From assembly GCA_027923505.1 (NCBI GenBank), contig BROI01000018.1:434001-498000 (forward strand): a DNA stretch of 64,000 nucleotides, in the 5' to 3' direction. This document shows positions 1-51,756 of this stretch, piece by piece. How positions within the stretch are numbered: the stretch's first letter is position 1; each line of letters begins with the position of its first letter. Below the pieces are notes generated by a model, which saw only the letters and a list, made by a program, of their open reading frames with translations, was not told the origin of the DNA and searched no databases. Made by a program: the position numbers and the translations under genes. Origin of the DNA: Mayamaea pseudoterrestris (Eukaryota; Bacillariophyta; Bacillariophyceae; Sellaphorales; Sellaphoraceae).

Positions 1-3000
1 TAAATTGAAGTCGCATCTTCAAGTAGCTCTCCCAAACCTAATGACATTGCTAAACCTGACCAGATACTGCTGCCATCATTAGAAGGAGGACTAGAAGCTG
101 TTGCTTCCTGACCTGCAAGGTAACCTTCTGACTGAAACTGAAGATCAAGCCCCGTGGAATCGATCACCCAATAGGGAACATAAAAACTAACAACTCGTGG
201 AGCCACGGGGAGGCTGTCCGAGAATGTATGCACATTATCTTTATAATTTCTTTTGGGTGTCGGATGGTTTCGAGTCAACCACACCGCAATGCACAATGGC
301 AAACCGACTGCGTCATGGAGCTGCACGTCGTCTAGAACAATGTTTGCAACACTCGTTGCTGAGCTACCAGCATCTTCGATCGGCACGAATGTGGACGTGC
401 TCCAGTTTGGAAATCGACTGGTTTTCCCATCGTATGATGCAAGCCGGACTCGTAGCTCGATACTTGAGCCAGCTGCAGCTCCACTCCATTTCATCCCGCT
501 GCCACATTCTAATACACCAATATCTACCCAAGCAAAGTTCATCGTAGTCTCATGCCGCTTGAAATTGTCCATTACTAAGTGTGAACTGGATGACTCCGGT
601 AATTTGACTTGTACATGGAGCGGCGACGCAAGATGGTTATAAAACGCCACCGTCGACCTAATAAATAGCATGCGACTTTCGGGGATTGTCGGATCGCTCA
701 CACCTAACGCATTGATTCTAGCTGGTTGCTCGTGATCATAGGACCCTATGCGCACTGAGCACATGTTCAAAAAGATTGGTCCGGCCATGTCTGACGATGA
801 ATGCACTATGACTCGGAATTTCTTACTCTGCATTCCAATCACACCTTGTGATAAAGACGTCGAAGAGAAGGGAGGCGGTGGGACAAGTGGTGTAAATTGA
901 GTTCGGTCAACACCCATTACTTCAGATTCATCCTTTGCCAGTGAATCTCTTGGTAAAGCCATCGCCGAAAACAGGTACAAATCACTGTTTAGGTACGACA
1001 CCAGATCCACTGGAACCGATAATAAACCCGTGCAGGAAAGCGACTGTTTTTGTATGAGACTCCTCCAAACCACTGATAAGCCGTCGTGATCACGCACTTC
1101 GCACAACAAGTCAACATCAGAGATATTTCTTAGCACAAGGGGCGATTCAATTGTTACGAGCTTTATGCCTCCGTGAAGCGCGATTCTGACAATCACCCAG
1201 CCAAGTAGACCGCTCGTTGCGTCGTCAGCTCCCGTTTGCAGATGACGTCTGTCGCTATTCCATTCTAACGGAAATCGGTGCAAGCCTACTGTGTCAACAG
1301 GTATTTTGGATAGGATTTTGTATGAAAACGTCGCTGAGAGCAAGCTGGTCCTAGTCTTGAGGCCATCGAAGCTCACTCGATCGATCGTGTCCTCGAAACT
1401 ACCGAGCTCGACGGTTATGTACGCTGTATGGGGATCACACGATTGAGATAAAGAACGCTTGAGCGAAATAGGCACTTGACTGTTACTCGACAAAGTGACC
1501 TGTGCCGCTTTTTCTCCCAGCGCTTGCCTTTCTAAATCTAACACTTCCATAAAACGGAGAGACTTCGCGAATTGATGAGCAAAACATTTTTGGCGAAAAC
1601 AAGATACTAGCACAAGCGCAGGCGCAGACACTTACTAATCCAGTGTCGTTTCGAATCCAATGAGGAGCTTTTCGACGTAATTCTCCGTCATGAGCATCGC
1701 TGAGATATCCAGACAAGTTTTCAATAAATGCACCGGTGATATTAACATTCAGAGGTTTTGTATCAGAAATATGGCACACAACAGTTGGTCGAGTTGAGCC
1801 CTTAGCCGAATCATGCTCCATTTCAGATGGGAAACCAAATTGTTTCAACCATTTGACAGGGAGTTCGCCGGGAAGCAGAGACAATGGACGGTAATCACTA
1901 GGAGGCATCAGCGGATACATTGCATTCGCGATTGTGTCCTCGGCACAAGAAGCGAGCGATAAATAACAAAAATCAATATCACGAGTTAAGACACCGGGAA
2001 TGCGAGAGTCGAGGGCAGCTTCAGCTGCATCAGGTTGAAAAGGGGATCGCAATAATCGGCTTATACCGCGAAACCGGCCAACTCCGATTACTTCTGCAGG
2101 CGAAGGATGCAACGGTATGGGCTGAAAATTTGCCTCTTCCAAAGCTCCAGCAACCTCGTTAAAAATTGGCGACAACCCAAAAGTTGTCGTTAAATCAGTT
2201 CCCACAACAACATCTGCTCCCCAGGCTTCGATAAGTGGCTCCCATGCCACTAGTCGGCGATTGTGATAGCTTGCAGCCAGCTGAAAGTTCAACCATCCTC
2301 CGGCGAAATTTTGCTTGCTTTGCAATGGCGTACGACTTCCATTAAGGCCTGACATCCTTGTTAATGGAGCGGCGACAGCAGCCGCACCAATGCGAAGTTG
2401 TTGCAGCGTTAATTTGAGTATTGGTGCTTCGGTCAATCTCGAAGCCCCTCCTGGAACGCATGTGATTCGAACGCCCTCGACTCTTATCGAGCAGATGATT
2501 GGCGCGCGACGCAGCATTTCTTTTAACTTTTGGAGATTTGATGACGATTTTGTTCCTTTACGTTCAGATGTTGGTGCACCTTTTATCGCCTGTATAATTG
2601 GGTTGAGTGTAGCACGTATTGCATCGTTGATGCCACCAGAGCTTTGAGAAATGTATACAAGTACGTCAACAGGGTCAGCTTTGAGCCCTACGGCATGAGC
2701 GGCACTTAATGTGTATAATCGCATGTCTTCCGGTCCCGTTGGGAAGAATGTACTAGAGAGATGGTATTTCAGAGTAAAATCTGTTGGGTTTGTGATTCTC
2801 TGCTCCTTGCCTTCGCAAGCATTGAAATAACCTGGCGACGACAACATCTGATTGAGCGTCGTTCGTAGTACTTCAAATTTCATTACCTGGGCTTCGACCT
2901 CCGACGACACAGCAGTCGATGGACCGATGGTGCGCTTGTTAATAAAAGTCCGAAATGCTTCCTCCACAACCATTCGATCGTCTACGCGAGCATATAGATT

Positions 3001-6000
3001 TTCCGTAGGAGTAAGCTGATCCAGCAAAGAAACATTAACAAAAACGCGAGCTTCAAGTTTCAATCTGAAAATAACCGCGTTCAAAGGCCTCTTTGCTGCA
3101 TTTTCCTGGACATACCGGGCAATGTCCTTAGACGGAAGGATACACGTTAGCTCACCAGAGCGCAATGAACATGATACTCTCCGTATTTCTCTTGCCAAAG
3201 TGTGCATGTTCTTTATTTCCTCAGTGTCAGCACGTGTTGAATGTTTCGCTTCGCTGGCAGACAGAGCCTTACAAGCTCGAACGAACGTCATCATACTGAA
3301 AGCGAACGACGGCAAAGGCATGCATTCAACATCACCAACGACGAAATCAATGGCGACATCCGCTCGTTCTGCACCAGACGACTTCTTTGTAATGGTAATT
3401 GCAAGTAGATCCGACCCGGGCAAAAACAACCCTCGAGCGCCGTTATCGTCACTTGCATTTCCGCCGGAAAGGGTACAAATTCCTGGCTGACACGACATGT
3501 CGGTCGCAACCAGCCTTGACACGCCACCAGAATACGAAGTCAGTAAGCTAGTCCGACTGACAGATAGACGGATATTATCGATGTCAAAAGACAGGCTTTT
3601 GTGTGTCCCGGTCATGGCGCCAGGTGACTGTCCATTTCGAAAAAGAGTGAGCACCACTCTTCGGATGACTAGTACCACCTTCATATCCTTCGGTCGCGTG
3701 TCATCATATTTGGCAGGAAGTTCACCCTTTGCAGTTGCTTTTTTGGTTTTTATCATATTAACAATATCCTTTAAAACCGCAAGACCTTGTTTCAGCTGGC
3801 CAACGGTTGACGCGAGAACATTCGATCGAAGCGAGGATAAATTAATTCCAATAGTAAGTGTGTCAGTTTTGCCTTGAAGCGACGGCTCAATCGCCCGATC
3901 GATAGCCACAATCCAAGGACTGCTCATTTGATAATCTAAAGGCGCCGTACTATTAAAAAAAGAAACCGCAGGGCTTTGAACAGATATGTTGGCCAAAAAC
4001 GGTTCGACTACCTGCCAATCGCCAGGCAGCCGGGTAACGACTACGTCTTCCAATGCGATACGTGCCAAGCTTCCCGGAAAAGCTGCCGATCCTGGTTGAA
4101 GTGAAGCGCGTCCGGTCAACGACAAAATAATACTAGAAGTCGACGTTTCTGGCTCTCCTGGTAATGGGTCGATCAATAGAATCGCAGATGATCGCTTTAA
4201 GTTAAATTCGAGTCGCCAGCGCACCAGACGAGTTACCCTTATCGATTTGACCGAGCTTGTTTGATGCTTTGCACTTTCCTTTATCTTCATTATGGAATCA
4301 TTAATTTGCCGCACCCCCTTGACGAGTCGCGAGAGCTCGGGGTTTAATGACATCAGGACACCGTTGACGCGTACTCCCATATGCGTATTCCAACATGTTG
4401 TATCTTCAGCGTCAGCTAATGTATTAACTGGCACGGTTTCACCAATCACCCACCCGCCCTTTACGGCTGGTGGGACAAGTTGTCGTCTCCATCGCAAGTG
4501 GACCAGTGCTACGGCGACGTCACGCCGGCCAAAAACCTCGGCGGCTTTTTCATAGCAGCCGTCGTCAAAATATACGGCCTGAATGTTATTACACGTTGCA
4601 TCCAGCTGTGAGCGAAGTTTTAATACCTGTTGGCAGTCTGTCGCAACAAAGCGAACCCTAAGCTCGTTGACAGCGCAAGCGCCCACCAGACGACCGTCAA
4701 AAAGGTGCAAGCGCATCGCCGAGAACCGTACGGAGATATCCGAGTGTGACAGGCTGCTGACTGGTGATTTGGCAGACAATTTGCTGGGAGATAACTCATC
4801 TAGGGCTTGAGTTGCACTAGCATTTACTGTTAATCCTGATCTGAGGCGCCTTAGCACCAAAAGAAATGAGCCCAAGATACGTTCGTGAGGCATAGCTTCC
4901 ATGTCACCGAACGATGCGTTCACTTTATTCAGCCTTGTCATTTGCGCCTGCAATGATGAACTATGTTGAATTTCCACCGATAACCTCAGCAGTTTATCTT
5001 CCATAGACTCCGCAGAGAAGAATTGCGGATATCGGATTGGTAAGACATTGCTGAAAATGGCATCGCTCGCTCCCCCAACAAGGAAAGTCGTTTCACCCAC
5101 AGCACTGCGATCATCAGAACGAAACACTCCATCAATGCTCTCGATGCTGGCCAGATATTTCGTCTCCCCGTGGTATTTTTGCATGACCAAAATTACTTCA
5201 GAGACACTGACGACAAACACATTCCCTTCAGCATTATTTGCATGCTGTAACTCAGGCTCTTGCGTCCTAAATTGCAATATGGTGCGCTGAAGCGCAAATG
5301 ACATTTCCAATATATTTCTCTTAAGTCCATATGTCAGGTTGTGATCGGACGGAGCCAAGGATGCAATCTCTAGAGTTCTCTTTGGGCGTTCCAGCAGGGT
5401 TGCTGCTCGTTTGACCGACAGTTTGGCGTAGTACGAAGTTGATACATCATCCGATACCCTATCTGACTCCATCAATTCCAGCTGAGTTATTATATCCCGA
5501 TGAGCCGCGCGCAACGTTTTCAATTCTGCTAAAGCCCTGTCAATCTCGAGCCTGATAGCTGGCTTTAAATTCTCATCGGTTTCAAGATTGCCCGAATTAC
5601 CGCTAGTATTATTTCTTCTCATATGAGATAACCGAGAGCGCAGTTCATCCAGCACTCGTTCGGCATCTTTGATGTCATGTGAAAGATCTGTCTCAAGTAC
5701 AAGGAGCTGATTGAGTGACAAAACCGAATGGAATGATTCAATAGCGCTTTCGCCTTCTGCGCTTGAGCCATCCGCCATATCCTCTTCAACCAGTTTCGCT
5801 AGATTTTCAGCACTTAAATAGGACGGGCCGACTGGACCTCTACTTCTCCCGAACGAGGATTCGGATATTGACGACACATCGGAGAAAGCTGAATTGGACC
5901 TGTTGCGACGACGAGTAGCTTTAATAAGCCTCGAGTCTTCATCAATAATGCTACTTGAGTCCGCTGTAACCCAATTATTTCGACAGTTTGCCTCAGGAGA

Positions 6001-9000
6001 GGTTATCGGATCAGATTCTGCAAACTTGCTCTCGTGCGTGTCGAAGAATTCGTCCTCGTCTATTGCGCTGGAGAGACAAGATTCTGTATCTTCCCATAGA
6101 GAGTTCAAAACATGCAGACTCGGAAGGCGTCTACGAAGGTTAAAATTAATTGCGGTAGTGGAAGGAGTGATGGGAACCGAACATAAAAGAACTTGCGTCC
6201 ACGTCTTAAAGATCTGGGCGAAGAGGAGAACTTGAGCTTCCGCCAGACAAAGTACCACTTCTTCAACTGTGCACCGAAGCTTCATCTTGGTCAGTGTATG
6301 ATCAGCAGGAAGAATTGACCTGTGGATCGTGATGCGCACATCCATAGGCAGCAGAATGTCGTCGCGACTTCCATTTACTTTGACGGCTGCAACGCCGCCA
6401 GGTTTGTATCCAATTTCGTAGGTGTCGTAAAAGAACGCATTGCTTTCGTCAGCTTCATCATTAAAAAAATCCGTCTCCTGCATGTATTGTCCGTAAGAAT
6501 CTAAATTCACTGTCTCATCAAATTTCACAGAGCCCATGAGGCTACGAGATGTTGATCGCGTGCTGGCTAGCGCACGGCTACGCGGAAGGCGCACTGACAT
6601 GCCAATGGAGCTTTCGTCTCGGCTCTGTGCTGTGGATGCCTCGTCAAATCTTACCGAGCGACCAGTAGAATGCTTGGCAGAATTATTGTCAGAGTTTGCT
6701 AGCACCATCATTGCGTCAGCAACCGAAGCCAGCTTTTTTGTCCTTAGAAACGCTCGGCCAAGATCAACAAAAAGTATCGATCCTTCACCGTCTTCAATAG
6801 CGATTACAGGACAATCGATGTCAATCAATACGTCAATATTGTTATGATCCAACGCGGAGGTAGCTTTTGCGAAATGGGTGAGACGAGCTGACGCCCATGA
6901 GTTGATGCGGGCCATGTTCATATCGTTCCAAAAATTCGATGCCTTTTTGTATTGCGGAAGCGGCCTTATCAGAAACTTGGTTCGTCGAATCCATTCACAC
7001 TCCGGAACAAGACTGACGCGGAGAGGGTACAATCGAGCTTGAAGACCCATATCAAAATCGCCATCGGAAGGTGGATTTTTTGTAAACAAAATCGACAAGA
7101 GTGGCTGTCGCGCTTGATGCTCTGAGTCAAGCTCATTAAGATGATCTGGCGATCGCTCAGTGTCTTGACCGATAACGCGATATACTAATTGATCTGATCT
7201 CGTCTCAGTGGCGATAAAATCATGCAAAGTGACGCGGATGGCAATGGATTTAAAGTCGCGCTTGAGTTCAAAGTTTACAGCGAAGCGCTCATAGTGGAAA
7301 ACCAGATAGCGCTGCTGCAAACGTCGGAGTTCCGTCTGGTCGCTGGTGGACTTTAAAGGTGAAAAAAGTGCAAGCTTTCCACTGTCGACTTCGAGTATCC
7401 AGGCAACAACGACAATTGATCGTGCTTCTTGCGCTTCCGCTGTAATATCGCGCGCTGTCAGTTCCTTCCAATACGCAACCAGCCGTTCATACTCTTCAAC
7501 GTCCTCTTCATCAAATATCGTATCATTGCCAATCAGACTTTGCGCCGACGTGGTTCTGCTGAACCAACTTGTTCGCCGCGCCGACGCCGGGACCACTGGC
7601 GTGAAACCAATTCGTCGCTCGACGAGAATGCGATACAGAGTGATATCTTCAATCGACAGGTCACCGACAAGCCCATCCTCAATCTTCTGGAGCTCGGTGC
7701 GTTCTTCTTCCGTCAGCGGCATCAAATCTCGTATAAGTTCATCGTTCGGTCGCACTCCAGCCGCATCATCCGGCGAAACCGCCCTCAATTTGCGCTCATA
7801 CAAGTCGCAGTATTGACGCCGAACTGCCAGTCCACGCTCCAAGCGTCCTCGGCACCAGCGCAGCCGATGGTCCTTCAGCTGGTATCTAATGACGTTACAA
7901 GCGTAGTGCCAATACGCGCTCGGATCCTCCAAGGCAGTTACCGTTGGTCGAAGATGGCGATACTGTAATCCATACTTGTATTCCTTGTAGCAGTGCCACA
8001 GCCGAAGTATTTGCAGGCACTGAAAGTCTCGCAGTTGAACATGCACATTTTGAATCTTGCAGTGAAAGACCACTGCCGGTTGGTCGCTCTCGCGCTGCAC
8101 TTTGGAGCTCCCAGCCAATGTGGCGTGCAGCGTCCCATCCATTGGCAGCAGCAGGTACGTGTGCGTGGGTGCCGGCGCCACCATTGCTTCACCCACCGCT
8201 GCTGCCCCGCTCGCCGCAGCGCGATCATCATCCACATGGCTCATTCGTCGTCCCACAGTCATGGCTCGTCGTGCAATGGAACGATCCAACGCCGCCGTAA
8301 TTTCCTGCGGCGTCAAATGCTGTAGTATCGCATGCTCCAAATCACCTTGTCGCCGCAACCCATGCTCCTCCACGGCGTTCCAATACATGGCAAAGTGGTT
8401 CAAGTGGGACACCTTGCGAATGAGTCCATCCAGTGGATTGCTATCATCAACTTGCGTCGTGTAGTCGTTTTGAATGTGCATACTTTCCAAAACAATTCCA
8501 GTCGCATACGGACTCGATGGATCCGTCTCCAAGTCTTCCAACCTTACGTGCAAGTCGCGTATATGAATCTGCACTCGATCGGCTAATGCTGGCAGCAGTC
8601 CATCTCGGAGTCGCTCCTTGATGTAGTCCTTCCATGACGCCTTTTCCGTGGCAGCTGCTGCATCGGACGCCGACGGATCCTTGGCAGCGGCGGCCGCCAG
8701 TTTCATGGTAGCCTTTTGCAGTTCGTTGCGCCGCTGCTTGACGCGCTTGTTGCGAATGGCAGAGTCATGGTAAGTTTCATCGACTTTTAGCAATATCGAT
8801 ATTCCATCCAGTACAATGACAATGTCGGCCCGACTGCTGTCAGTTCGCTGTTGCTTGTTTCGTCCACGAACAAGATCAATGAGACTCGACGGCTGCAGCT
8901 TGCTCCAGGGAACAGTGACTTGAACGCTTCTCACACTTCCATGCACGAGTTGCACTGGCAATCCCAGCAAGAGCTTTTCGTTAATCACGTCAGTCTTGAG

Positions 9001-9144
9001 ACTCAATCGATGCCACTGCACAAAGCCAGACCAAACGCCCAAAGAGGCAAACGCCGTGTCGCTGCCGTTGTTTTGGGTGGTGTCCATGACAAAGTAGTCC
9101 TTGAGAAAGCGCTGGGCGAGCTTGGCGGCAAGGTTTTCAAACAT
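1..9144 (-). CDS. VPS13: VPS13-family bridge-like lipid transfer protein (C-terminus cut by window edge)
   Basis: VPS13 proteins form long hydrophobic grooves that move lipids in bulk between membranes at contact sites. The start at 9144 opens with MFENLAAKLAQRFLKDYF, a chorein N-terminal signature, and the chorein region covers about residues 1-120. Exon 1 runs 9144-1636 (2503 codons) and ends in WIRNDTGL, a conserved VPS13 motif. A 73-bp intron (1635-1563, GTAAGT...AG, phase 0) follows. Reading through it would meet a stop at 1483, so the uninterrupted frame ending in HFVE is not the true end. Exon 2 continues in another frame from 1562 to base 1 and carries HGGIKLVTIESPLVL and YVPYWVIDSTGLDL, both typical of the VPS13 adaptor-binding/SHR-BD region. 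A helical segment near residues 1150-1230 could be coiled coil. At least 3020 residues are present; the APT1 and PH-like C-terminus lies outside. It is divergent from the HA-repeat gene. The family call is secure; the exon 2 acceptor is inferred. Confidence 0.93.
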
Positions 9145-13076: not shown

Positions 13077-14987
13077 CTACTCGGCCGACGCATCTTCAAA
13101 CTCGGGCAAGGGCGTTGCGTATCCATCTCGTTCCGGAAGCGTCTTGTACACCTCCTGCAGCTTGGTCGTGATTGGACCTCGTTTGCCATTTCCAATGACT
13201 CGTCCATCAATCATTGTCACGGGAGTGAGCTCACCCATGGTACCAGTCGTAAAGACTTCGTCCGCCGCATGAAACTCGGCCAAGGAAATGCGCCGCTCCA
13301 CGCAAGGAATTCCAAGCTCCTTGGCAAGATTAATGACAGTTGCACGCGTAATGCCGGGGAGACAATAATCAGCGTGTGGCGTCAGCAAAACGCCATCTTC
13401 ATCCACCATGAACAAGTTGGTGGCATTCGTCTCGGAAACAAAGCCTTCCAAATCCAGCATGATGGCGTCAGCGGCTCCGGCTAAATTGGCCTGAATCTTT
13501 GGCAGTATATTGTTGATCAAGTTGTTGTGATGAATCTTGGAATCGACAGTCTGCGGCGAATTGCGTCGCTGCGAGGCAGAAATGAGTGTAATGCCTGCTT
13601 CATTGTCATAAGTCGTGGCACCCTCGGTGGGTTTCCACTCGGCCAAAACAATCAAGGTGGTTCCGTAAACGTTGAAAAGTGGATTCATACTTGACGTGTA
13701 CTTTTCGCCGCGCGTCAGTGTGAGACGAATATGTGCACCGTCCCGCATGTTGTTGGCAGCCACTGTTCTAAAAATGGCGTCAACAACTTGCTCCTTGGTA
13801 TGCACGTTTTCAAATCCCAGCGCCTTGGCGGAACGAAAGAGTCGCTTCAAGTGCTTGTCCAAGTGCAAAATCTTGTTGCGATACACTCTCAAGCCTTCCC
13901 ACGCCGCGTCTCCTCCTTGCACTGCCGAGTCCCACGGACTCACGCCCGCCATTTCGCGTGGCACCAACTGTCCGCGTCCCGGTGCTCCAACGTGTACGAG
14001 CAAGTGCTCGTTGCGCGCATCTTCATACGTGGTGGCTGCTGGAGGTCCGCGTGTTTGGTATCCGCGCGTCAGCGTTTTGAGAAACTGGTAGGCTGGCATG
14101 GACGCTCTCAAGGCATCCATGAGGCCTGGGTTCATGGTGCGGTAGCGAGTGTTTGTTGGCGCTACAGCTACTGCCGCATCAGCCTGTTGATTACTCGATA
14201 ATTGCTGCTGCAGCTTCCATCCAGTGCTTTTCCAAACATCGGCATACCACCATTCGGCCCATGGCCCGTCGCAAGCATGCGGACCAGCCTTCCACTCCAT
14301 CATGCTTGGCGTGTAGTCAATGCCAAGACTTTGACAGGTTGCTTGCAGAACATGTTGTGGATCCTGTACCAATTCGTCCGAATCCAATATAGTAACTGAG
14401 GTAGCTGTACTGTTCTTATTGCCATTATCATTCTTGCGACTCTGCATTTGCGAGTAAATGGCCAACAGTGGTACAATGCCAACTTCATCGGGCGTGGGAT
14501 TGTTGCCGTGCACATTGGCCGAGCAGCTCCAGCTGCTCAAGACGGACACTGGATCGCGAATGAGGAGCAAATGCTTGTGACTGTATTCAATGTCTTTGTC
14601 TTTCGATTCGACTTCCGCTTCAAAGTCATAGAGGAATGAGTGTTTCGCCATGTGCTTGCAAAAGATGACTCCGTTCGGCGACAACTCGGTTGCTGCCTTG
14701 TGCAGTCGCTCCTCCAGCGAAAGTTGCTCTCGCTGCCACGTTGAAGCGTTTGCACTACGTTCATGTCCAAGAGGCGGACATCCTGTAATCATCGCCTCTG
14801 TGTATGGTCGTTCCACGGCATCGCCCTTGCGCTCAAGCCACGAACGATAGAGTGGTTCATCCACTGCCACGCAATTGTCACTTCCTCGCGCTTCAAAGCT
14901 GTACAGCAGAGCGGTAGATCGACTGCGAGGTGCACTCCAGCAGTGAATGATTGTAATCTGTTTCTTGCCGCCGCTGCTGTTGGACAT
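13077..14987 (-). CDS. Sulfotransferase-like P-loop domain fused to a class IV (branched-chain type) aminotransferase
   Basis: The 636-residue two-domain protein matches the layout of plant branched-chain-amino-acid aminotransferase-like proteins. Residues 11-300 form a P-loop/sulfotransferase-like domain: ITIIHCWSAPRSRSTALLYS, then VDEPLYRSWL, HLLLIRDPVSVLSSW and MEWKAGPHACDGPWAEWWY. Residues 300-630 are a PLP fold-type IV transaminase: VSPWDSAVQGGDAAWEGLRV, then DSKIHHNNLINNIL, where Lys484 is the expected Schiff-base lysine, then EGFVSETNATNLFMV and TPHADYCLPGITRATV. The family is presumed to act on branched-chain or related 2-oxo acids; the role of the P-loop half is unknown. I chose the ATG at 14987 (MSNSSGGKK), just before the first conserved strand. 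The same frame stays open to 15236, but that stretch is Arg-rich, GC-rich promoter sequence reaching to within 15 bp of the divergent start. No organelle presequence is obvious from this start. Confidence 0.9.
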   Translation of the reverse strand: MSNSSGGKKQITIIHCWSAPRSRSTALLYSFEARGSDNCVAVDEPLYRSWLERKGDAVERPYTEAMITGCPPLGHERSANASTWQREQLSLEERLHKAATELSPNGVIFCKHMAKHSFLYDFEAEVESKDKDIEYSHKHLLLIRDPVSVLSSWSCSANVHGNNPTPDEVGIVPLLAIYSQMQSRKNDNGNKNSTATSVTILDSDELVQDPQHVLQATCQSLGIDYTPSMMEWKAGPHACDGPWAEWWYADVWKSTGWKLQQQLSSNQQADAAVAVAPTNTRYRTMNPGLMDALRASMPAYQFLKTLTRGYQTRGPPAATTYEDARNEHLLVHVGAPGRGQLVPREMAGVSPWDSAVQGGDAAWEGLRVYRNKILHLDKHLKRLFRSAKALGFENVHTKEQVVDAIFRTVAANNMRDGAHIRLTLTRGEKYTSSMNPLFNVYGTTLIVLAEWKPTEGATTYDNEAGITLISASQRRNSPQTVDSKIHHNNLINNILPKIQANLAGAADAIMLDLEGFVSETNATNLFMVDEDGVLLTPHADYCLPGITRATVINLAKELGIPCVERRISLAEFHAADEVFTTGTMGELTPVTMIDGRVIGNGKRGPITTKLQEVYKTLPERDGYATPLPEFEDASAE

Positions 14988-15250
14988 GCTTAAGTTCAAT
15001 TGTTTGGCTGTAAAGTTGGAGATCTTGGAACAAAAGTCGGCGCGAGCGGCGCGGCGCGGCGAAGTGTCACAGTCAGTCACGCTAAACTCGCAACGGTACC
15101 CCCTTAGTCGTAACGGTACTCGAAAGCATTCTTCGCCGCGCCGCGACGATTCACGGAACAAAAACACCAGATTTGCTTGTAGACGAGCACGAATTAGATT
15201 ATAGAGTACTTGTTTCCCATCCAGCAAACAAGACAATTACTAAGAGCACC
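14988..15250. promoter_or_regulatory. Divergent promoter with a 15-bp inverted repeat
   Basis: The 263 bp lie between divergent ATGs at 14987 and 15251. A GC-rich 15-bp word, CGCGGCGCGGCGAAG (15050-15064), recurs as its exact reverse complement at 15131-15145, about 66 bp away, so the repeat is centred near 15097. The arrangement is symmetrical with respect to the two genes and suggests a shared site read from both sides. Function is inferred only. Confidence 0.55.
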
Positions 15251-17423: not shown

Positions 17424-18689
17424 TCACGCGGACGCAGTGAGTTTGAGAACGTTTCCGTCCTCATCAATCGGCTTGCCATCGTACCGAGTCTTGGCAAACG
17501 CAGCCTTTGCGCGGATGCCCTCATCCTCGGCATGATAAATGGTACGAATAAGTGTCGAACTGCAAGCTTCCGTGCGAGGGACAAAGTGCACCGGCATGAC
17601 CGACTCGACCCAATCTCGACCTGGAAACTCCAACATATCGTCACCGCGTGCGTAGCAGCACGATCCTGCAACAATGTCCTGTCGACTAACCATGGCTTTC
17701 ACAAAGGGCATTGGATCGGTGGAAGGAATCACAAAGATCTGATCCACGTACGGTCTAATGTTTTCCATGCGGTCCTCGAGCTTGTCAATGGGTGCCTTGC
17801 TCTTGAGCTGATAGTACGAAGCATCGTCATGTATGCCAGCAACGATGAAGCAACCAAATTCGCGGAGTGAGTTAAGCACATTTTGGTGGCCTCGATGGAA
17901 AAGGTCAAAGCATCCAATAGTGTAGACCTTGCGGTTCTCCCAGCCTTCTGGAAGCTGAGGCTTGAGAGCATGAACTTCGTCGATCAACCTGCCAACATGC
18001 TTCTTCATTTCGCAAAGCGCCTGTCCATTAAGGTAGGGACTAGCTGCCAGAATTTCATCAACTTTGTTGTCGCGAATTGACGTGCCAGCTCGCTTGTCAT
18101 ATTTCTTAAAAATCTTCGACATAGCCGTCTTGTTGAGGTCGAGGAATTCAAGCAGCAAGTCAAGCTCGCGGTCAAAAGTAACCAAGGACTTTTTGGCGTA
18201 GATGAACGCATTGAAATGTTTGCTGGAACCCATGCGACGGTACTCCTCCTTGAGGTAGGCTTGATGGGTACCGAACGATTGACGCTTCGAGGTGAGTGTC
18301 AAGAATCCACTCTCAAGCTCTGGCACATAGATAATATCGCTTCCTTCAGCGACTTCGACGTTTCCATCCTCCGTTTCATCATCCGACGAGAGAGACTGCG
18401 CATCAGAATCCGAGGACGGTTCAGTAATGCTTCCCGATCGTGGCGAACTAGGTGCAGTCGCCCGCAATTGAGCGACGCGCTCTTCCAGTACGTTCATATA
18501 TTCCTTGGCCCACTGCTCCTTGTCATGGTAAAATTTGGAAAGCTTATGTTCGTTCGCAGCCATACTGGCGGAGAAATCATCAACATTGGGCGTGTCATCT
18601 TTCAATGATCGCTTGAGAGCTTTGTAGTCCACAGCATAGAAGCGCCATTCTTTAAGAGTCTTCTCACGCAAGAGTTTGCCGAATTTCAT
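17424..18689 (-). CDS. SPX domain fused to a cytidylyltransferase
   Basis: The 421-residue protein joins two recognisable domains. Residues 1-205 are SPX: MKFGKLLREKTLKEWRFYAV is the classic opening, and SKIFKKYDKR (191-200) is the Lys-rich helix that binds inositol pyrophosphates in this family. An acidic low-complexity insert lies at 80-120. Residues 254-390 are a nucleotidyltransferase: TIGCFDLFHRGHQNVL carries the HxGH motif (His265, His268) and PRTEACSSTLIR (371-382) stands for the usual RTxGxSTT motif. SPX domains report phosphate status; cytidylyltransferases of this type make CDP-choline, CDP-ethanolamine or CDP-glycerol. The fusion therefore suggests control of phospholipid head-group activation by phosphate supply. 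Only one catalytic domain is present, unlike the two-domain ethanolamine enzyme. The substrate cannot be told from sequence. The start is the family-typical MKFGK. A 20-bp perfect palindrome lies about 48 bp upstream. Confidence 0.92.
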   Translation of the reverse strand: MKFGKLLREKTLKEWRFYAVDYKALKRSLKDDTPNVDDFSASMAANEHKLSKFYHDKEQWAKEYMNVLEERVAQLRATAPSSPRSGSITEPSSDSDAQSLSSDDETEDGNVEVAEGSDIIYVPELESGFLTLTSKRQSFGTHQAYLKEEYRRMGSSKHFNAFIYAKKSLVTFDRELDLLLEFLDLNKTAMSKIFKKYDKRAGTSIRDNKVDEILAASPYLNGQALCEMKKHVGRLIDEVHALKPQLPEGWENRKVYTIGCFDLFHRGHQNVLNSLREFGCFIVAGIHDDASYYQLKSKAPIDKLEDRMENIRPYVDQIFVIPSTDPMPFVKAMVSRQDIVAGSCCYARGDDMLEFPGRDWVESVMPVHFVPRTEACSSTLIRTIYHAEDEGIRAKAAFAKTRYDGKPIDEDGNVLKLTASA

Positions 18690-50622: not shown

Positions 50623-51292
50623 ACTTTGTATTGCATATGCAAGTCTACTTGGATTCTGTGGAAAGAAGGCAGTGACTGCTTCGTGTCGAACTTTTTGGCG
50701 CTTGATTGTGACCATGATCGACTCGTCGTTTCAGTTAGCAGTGCATTTGTTAGACGGCATTGCTGCCTGGACTACTGGAATGAAAATGACGGACGGGTGA
50801 TAACTTTAAAGTGCTCCGCTTTTTGACTCTCTCAATGACGAAATACCGGATCACCTGCTGCTGGGCAAAAGAAAAGGGTGGAAGTGCTGCTGATGCTGCT
50901 GCTGCTGTACGATAACTTTTACGTTTGATGTTGATTTTAGATTTCCAACCATGGCATATGGCATACATCAATGACAAGTTTTACGATCGATTTGAATAAA
51001 GATTAATGCTTCGTACGAAAATACGATCAAGCGCATTATATTATGTTGTACGTCGTAAAATACTACTACGGGAGATATCGCATCCGTCGCCGTCCCGACG
51101 CTAATCAAGAGCACTCTATTCTGCAATCCAGGCTCTATGCTTGTCATATAATCATCATTATCACAATCAACAAGTTCGCCGCCGTCTTCGTCGTCTTCGA
51201 AATTCGAAACGACTCAATTTAGTTGCGGCGCAAGATCAGACTCAAATCATAATCATCATCGTCGGTGTCGTCGTCGTCGTCGTCGTCATCAA
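50623..51292. other. Intergenic, nothing recognised
   Basis: About 670 bp after the UPF0390-like gene contain its 3' UTR, a short CTG-rich run near 50,890-50,905 and, from 51,150, imperfect CAT/CGT triplets that lead into the microsatellite. Short open frames on both strands look like chance. Confidence 0.5.
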
Positions 51293-51695
<403 letters not shown>

Positions 51696-51756
51696 GCCGT
51701 CGTCGTCGACATCATCATCTTCGTCGTCGTCGTCGTCATCGTCGTCATTCAAAAGG

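Follow-up and report, generated by a model that had tools for sequence, protein, structure and literature searches.

The SPX effectors known so far transport, polymerise or release phosphate, or act on regulators by tagging or sequestering them. Two yeast proteins are the nearest described systems in layout: Vtc4, in which an SPX domain precedes a polyphosphate polymerase, and Gde1, in which it precedes a glycerophosphocholine phosphodiesterase acting on a phospholipid headgroup product (PMC7381174). The activity of yeast VTC is turned on by inositol pyrophosphates via SPX, which relieves an inhibitory SPX interaction (PMC10167327). In the literature we consulted, the partners named for SPX are EXS, MFS, RING, VTC, DUF202, CitMHS, SLC and glycerophosphodiesterase. 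The diatom Phaeodactylum tricornutum has six SPX genes, five of them with a further domain; among those named are SPX, Vpt1 (MFS) and Vtc4 (PMC8233357).

Here we describe a gene in a 64,000-nucleotide stretch of DNA (the window) whose product has the same order as Vtc4 and Gde1, with SPX at the N-terminus followed by a catalytic domain in a single chain, but whose catalytic partner is an HxGH cytidylyltransferase domain. As a possible lipid enzyme it would resemble Gde1 in particular. It is this partner that appears to be new, SPX-gated enzymes as such being already known. In the titles and abstract openings of the papers listed by a literature search on SPX, and in those of the papers that we consulted, no SPX-cytidylyltransferase fusion is described. 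An orthologue may already be among the multidomain SPX genes of Phaeodactylum tricornutum (PMC8233357), and the fusion may be annotated somewhere, though unstudied.

An SPX domain and a nucleotidyltransferase domain in one reading frame

The frame comprises 421 codons and begins with ATG (Table 1). A first-pass annotation of this DNA had described an SPX domain and an HxGH nucleotidyltransferase in one frame and had suggested a domain search of the 421-residue protein. That search bears the description out, with both domains above their curated cut-offs; in addition, no GTR...YAG intron fits the junction. SPX (PF03105) scored 69.7 bits (cut-off 27.8, E 6e-19, best stretch 37-208) and CTP_transf_like (PF01467) scored 42.8 bits (cut-off 21, E 7.5e-11, residues 256-383). 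At E 0.01 the only further Pfam match was a sub-cut-off FAD_syn overlap.

Table 1. Features of the fusion gene, in window coordinates
Feature	Position	Strand	Basis
Single-frame gene, 421-residue SPX-cytidylyltransferase fusion	17424..18689, stop codon included	minus	Pfam, own-genome match, codon-usage scan
SPX domain, residues 1-240, start MKFGKLL	17970..18689	minus	Pfam PF03105, PDB alignments, low-confidence model
Stretch with Y22 and K26, putative phosphate-binding-cluster residues (AtSPX1 Y25, K29)	18612..18626	minus	alignment
KIFKKYDK with K192, K195, K196, K199 (AtSPX1 K136, K139, K140, K143)	18093..18116	minus	alignments
HxGH nucleotidyltransferase domain and C-terminal tail, residues 252-421	17427..17936	minus	Pfam PF01467, model of 244-421, Foldseek of weaker model
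HRGH motif (HxGH), residues 265-268	17886..17897	minus	alignments
K296, counterpart of PfCCT K663 and rat CCT K122 (PMC6060094)	17802..17804	minus	alignment
RTEACSST, residues 372-379, counterpart of RTEG(I/V)ST(S/T)	17553..17576	minus	alignment

The SPX half keeps the MKFGK start, and its residues 132-239 align to a PDB chain named 'SPX domain-containing protein 1' (phmmer against PDB sequences). In AtSPX1 the putative ligand residues are Y25, K29 and K139 of the phosphate-binding cluster (PBC) and K136, K140 and K143 of the lysine surface cluster (KSC) (PMC7810988). Alignment to solved SPX chains showed all six of these inositol-pyrophosphate contacts to be kept, as Y22, K26 and K195 for the PBC and K192, K196 and K199 for the KSC. 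The intact-looking SPX with a Lys-rich inositol-pyrophosphate surface noted in the first pass is supported by this complete set of listed contacts. A low-confidence model places SPX helices at residues 2-30, 36-78, 140-152, 157-201, 207-216 and 223-241. Given a profile score above the curated cut-off and the full set of listed contacts, we assign the fusion to the SPX domain proteins (PF03105) and predict that it binds the ligand. Scans of viral contigs, from which records of this genome were possibly left out, confirmed no relatives of the SPX half.

The enzyme half and its acceptor

The enzyme half was aligned to Plasmodium CCT (PfCCT). Its HxGH at 265-268 coincides with the HxGH histidines, Lys296 with K663 and Arg372 with R755, while Ser378 and Thr379 correspond to T761 and T762. 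The Arg of the CCT signature stacks on the cytosine ring, and the same movement occurs in ECT and GCT (PMC6060094). Compared with RTEG(I/V)ST(S/T), the fusion's RTEACSST keeps R, T, E, the first S and the last T, with G replaced by A and T by S. Retention of HxGH, Lys296 and the CTP-stacking Arg372 makes it likely that the fusion enzyme is a CTP-dependent transferase. From its family, the predicted reaction would convert CTP and a phosphorylated small molecule to a CDP-compound and pyrophosphate.

Profiles and models agree on the superfamily. Against PDB sequences, phmmer aligned the enzyme half to ECT from residue 254 and to TagD from residue 253, the best match being human ECT (E 9.1e-14), and the NCBIfam profile TIGR00125 scored 39.3 bits against a cut-off of 27.7. 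A model of residues 244-421 reached a mean pLDDT of 82.2 and a pTM of 0.73, with the alternating strand/helix order of a Rossmann fold. It was built with 72 relatives, drawn from 100 loci tried (80 genome loci and 20 of 80 viral loci) after short domains and those more than 75% alike by position were dropped. The genome loci are 80 of 386 relatives of the enzyme domain, and these 80 are 26-43% identical to it in their best segments. The full-length model, built from the window protein and 24 of the 80 viral loci, was poor (mean pLDDT 52.4); the first Foldseek matches for this weaker model were HldC, Fom1 CyTase, CCT and TagD. On the profile, the HxGH motif and the Rossmann-type fold, the enzyme half belongs to the HxGH cytidylyltransferase-like superfamily (PF01467), and it models as a cytidylyltransferase fold.

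Within this superfamily the fusion resembles bacterial TagD and HldE/HldC in being a single compact domain, in its NCBIfam matches (rfaE_dom_II, g3p_cytidyltrns) and in the Foldseek matches of the weaker model. Unlike them, it misses both equivalog cut-offs by far: the heptose-1-phosphate adenylyltransferase profile TIGR02199 (rfaE_dom_II) scored 43.6 bits against 181.5, over profile positions 10-94 of 144, and the glycerol-3-phosphate profile TIGR01518 (g3p_cytidyltrns) 26.9 bits against 165.4.

Residues at the acceptor site were compared with those of PfCCT, in which W692, Y714 and Y741 lie at the choline and D623 is one of the residues that shift to make room for ligands (PMC6060094). Y714 and Y741 fall opposite gaps, within a loop whose alignment is uncertain, and Trp360 is near Y741. 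At the other two positions the CCT residues are absent from the fusion: D623, which we take to be the charged member of the PfCCT choline site, is aligned with Ile258, and W692 with Met327. Where the fusion has Ile258, 63 of 72 prokaryotic and phage relatives have Asn, 8 have Tyr and one has Thr.

These residues bear on the reading of the protein as a Kennedy-pathway enzyme, that is, an SPX-gated CTP:phosphoethanolamine (or phosphocholine) cytidylyltransferase that switches phospholipid headgroup synthesis with phosphate status. The fusion shares with ECT and CCT the fold, HxGH, the Lys and the CTP-stacking Arg, and the human ECT match speaks for this reading. So do seven matches to CDP-alcohol phosphotransferases in the genome, two of which (L034 and L035) we read from their sequences as choline/ethanolamine type, and the replacement of phospholipids by betaine lipids and sulfolipid in diatoms under P limitation (PMC7283521, PMC8301168). 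Unlike CCT and ECT, however, the fusion has Ile258, Met327, RTEACSST and an SPX in front, and the D623 position is Asp both in the genome's own ECT (first exon, second domain) and in its CCT-like gene. ECT has two tandem cytidylyltransferase domains, whereas the fusion has a single PF01467 stretch. Moreover, the genome carries a separate tandem ECT gene with two such domains (contig C3) and a separate CCT-like domain behind a membrane-protein exon (contig C15).

A free tree was built from 30 rows, made up of 18 genome loci and 3 viral loci (each out of 80), five PDB domains, three own-genome domains and the fusion's own domain. In it the enzyme domain lay outside the ECT/CCT branch, with a 100/99 branch parting it and the bacterial rows from ECT/CCT, and its own branch was long (1.87). 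It is not rejected from the ECT/CCT branch, though, as an AU test left standing both a clade with ECT/CCT (p 0.157) and a clade with TagD-like rows (p 0.383). On this balance we regard a Kennedy-type enzyme as unlikely.

Of the CDP-alcohol-forming enzyme put forward by the first-pass annotation, the HxGH/Lys/Arg set in a cytidylyltransferase-like model is the supported part, while CDP-choline and CDP-ethanolamine as products are not supported in view of Ile258, Met327 and RTEACSST. As acceptor we favour a non-amine phosphate, of polyol or sugar type, or else an unusual headgroup over phosphocholine, which is the least likely of the candidate acceptors named at that stage. Glycerol-3-phosphate, also named there, did not gain from the NCBIfam equivalog, which the protein falls well short of. 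In addition, PF04464 (CDP-glycerol glycerophosphotransferase) had no match in the genome, which weakens the CDP-glycerol hypothesis without eliminating glycerol-3-phosphate as acceptor.

It is also possible to read the C-terminal domain as catalytically weak or dead, and the protein as a sensor or scaffold that reads CTP and inositol pyrophosphate together. The altered signature RTEACSST and the long branch are in keeping with this, as are a degenerate cytidylyltransferase-like stretch without HxGH elsewhere in the genome (L036; read by eye) and the possible loss of a conserved Asp. One alignment sets Cys345 at a position that is Asp in 72 of 72 prokaryotic and phage relatives. The PfCCT alignment puts an insertion before Arg348-Gly-Asp-Asp, so that GDD 349-351 would supply the Asp, and it sets PfCCT H709, which contacts the acceptor phosphate, opposite Arg348. 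In the model of residues 244-421, residues 339-343 form a strand and 347-357 a loop, which is compatible with either placement. Retention of HxGH, Lys and Arg and the good model of the enzyme domain argue against a dead enzyme, which we judge to be quite improbable.

Genome context and proposed mechanism

The genome searched is an assembly of 30.6 Mb in 41 contigs. It gave 10 silicon-transporter matches, 9 of them over cut-off, and, with each exon counted separately, 53 light-harvesting-protein matches; from these the host looks like a diatom. The phytoplankton host supposed at first is consistent with these matches and with a gene that combines DUF3419 and a methyltransferase, the layout of betaine-lipid synthase. 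The RuBisCO large subunit had no match in the assembly, presumably because the plastid genome is absent from it.

Other SPX frames in the genome are of the SPX-EXS, SPX-only and SPX-MFS types, and there are two VTC-domain matches, both in frames with internal stop codons. Among 14 control prokaryotes, DUF3419 was matched in 1 and VTC in 3; therefore neither family name alone is proof of function. The genome also encodes a PPIP5K, in a frame that matches both the kinase N-terminal and the histidine-phosphatase profiles, and has an inositol-polyphosphate kinase (IPK) match. With these two encoded, the host could plausibly make inositol pyrophosphates, the signalling molecules read by SPX domains.

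The sequence itself shows the two domains in a single frame, with the residues for ligand contact and the core of the catalytic site in place. We think it probable that the protein is a diatom enzyme, likely cytosolic, in which SPX acts at the N-terminus as a receptor that controls one HxGH cytidylyltransferase domain, whose acceptor is more likely a non-amine phosphate or an unusual headgroup. When phosphate is plentiful, IP7/IP8 would bind the surface formed by Y22/K26/K195 and K192/K196/K199. Binding would move helix alpha-1 and lift the restraint of SPX on the catalytic domain, and the released enzyme would then move CMP from CTP onto a small phosphorylated acceptor; the products would be a CDP-activated precursor and pyrophosphate. 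As phosphate falls, inositol pyrophosphates would fall as well and synthesis of the CDP-precursor would stop. This direction, on at high phosphate and off in shortage, is expected by analogy with yeast VTC.

Because the SPX receptor is joined directly to a CTP-using domain, synthesis of a CDP-activated building block, perhaps one for lipids, may be under the control of phosphate supply. If so, a direct wire from SPX to cytidylyltransferase would make the rate of a CDP-precursor step depend on phosphate status, and would offer a testable molecular basis for the diatom balance of phosphorus-containing and phosphorus-free membrane lipids, which is important in phosphorus-poor waters. More tentatively, the fusion could be an SPX effector of a new class, a cytidylyltransferase gated by inositol pyrophosphates and making a CDP-precursor outside the classical choline and ethanolamine branches. 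Through it the diatom phosphate signal would act allosterically, without transcription, on a pathway for lipid or glycan headgroups at its committed step; we consider this wider proposal possible, with the odds somewhat against it. Since the protein is encoded by one short gene without apparent intron, both binding and activity can be assayed directly.

Integrity of the gene and its surroundings

SPX and enzyme are separated by a linker of about a dozen residues, as the SPX alignment to PDB ends at 239 and the enzyme alignments start at 253/254. Codons 201-260 contain no sequence of 40-150 nt with the form GT[AG]...[CT]AG. Trained on eight other long frames within the window, a codon-usage score was positive for the fusion frame in all 26 sliding windows of 40 codons, and another frame (antisense or forward) outscored it in 4 of the 26 (those starting at codons 121, 136, 151 and 256). 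That two neighbouring genes, or an assembly or gene-model artefact, are read here as one is thus hardly credible: the four windows are in its favour, but the short linker, the single frame and the missing candidate intron rule out a junction artefact at the sequence level. In the own-genome search the fusion matched only itself and the second domain of the ECT gene (residues 254-320, 34%); no paralogue was seen there, and the gene therefore looks single-copy.

About 1.35 kb upstream of the gene begins a tandem satellite of 169 bp, which makes up most of some 21 kb of the window (20037-41372) with 90-95% matches in 169-bp rows and is possibly centromeric or heterochromatic. Near the fusion gene lies another unusual fusion, with Sulfotransfer_5 and aminotransferase class IV matches in one frame (13080-15014, minus strand). 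The window further contains a 2553-residue frame with a VPS13 N-terminal match (1483-9144, minus strand) and a TCA microsatellite of about 154 copies inside several overlapping open frames (51286-51748).

Elsewhere in the genome, the CCT-like domain on contig C15 (L025 2679-4373, minus strand) is accompanied by a membrane-protein-like frame of about 400 residues without Pfam match. An apparent GT-AG intron joins the two, with the spliced motif NVYCDGVYDLCHIGH. L036 (about 551-1830; contig C18 near 215.5 kb, minus strand) has a CDP-alcohol phosphatidyltransferase-like stretch followed by the apparently degenerate cytidylyltransferase-like stretch; the 270-residue frame at this locus had no Pfam match. 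Two CDP-alcohol phosphatidyltransferase loci 20 kb apart, L030 and L031 (C1:1844087 and C1:1864032), are identical in DNA over the whole fetched stretch and represent either a recent duplication or an assembly duplicate. Finally, one open frame of 1445 residues on contig C1 (C1:2970661-2974680) carries three silicon-transporter domains.
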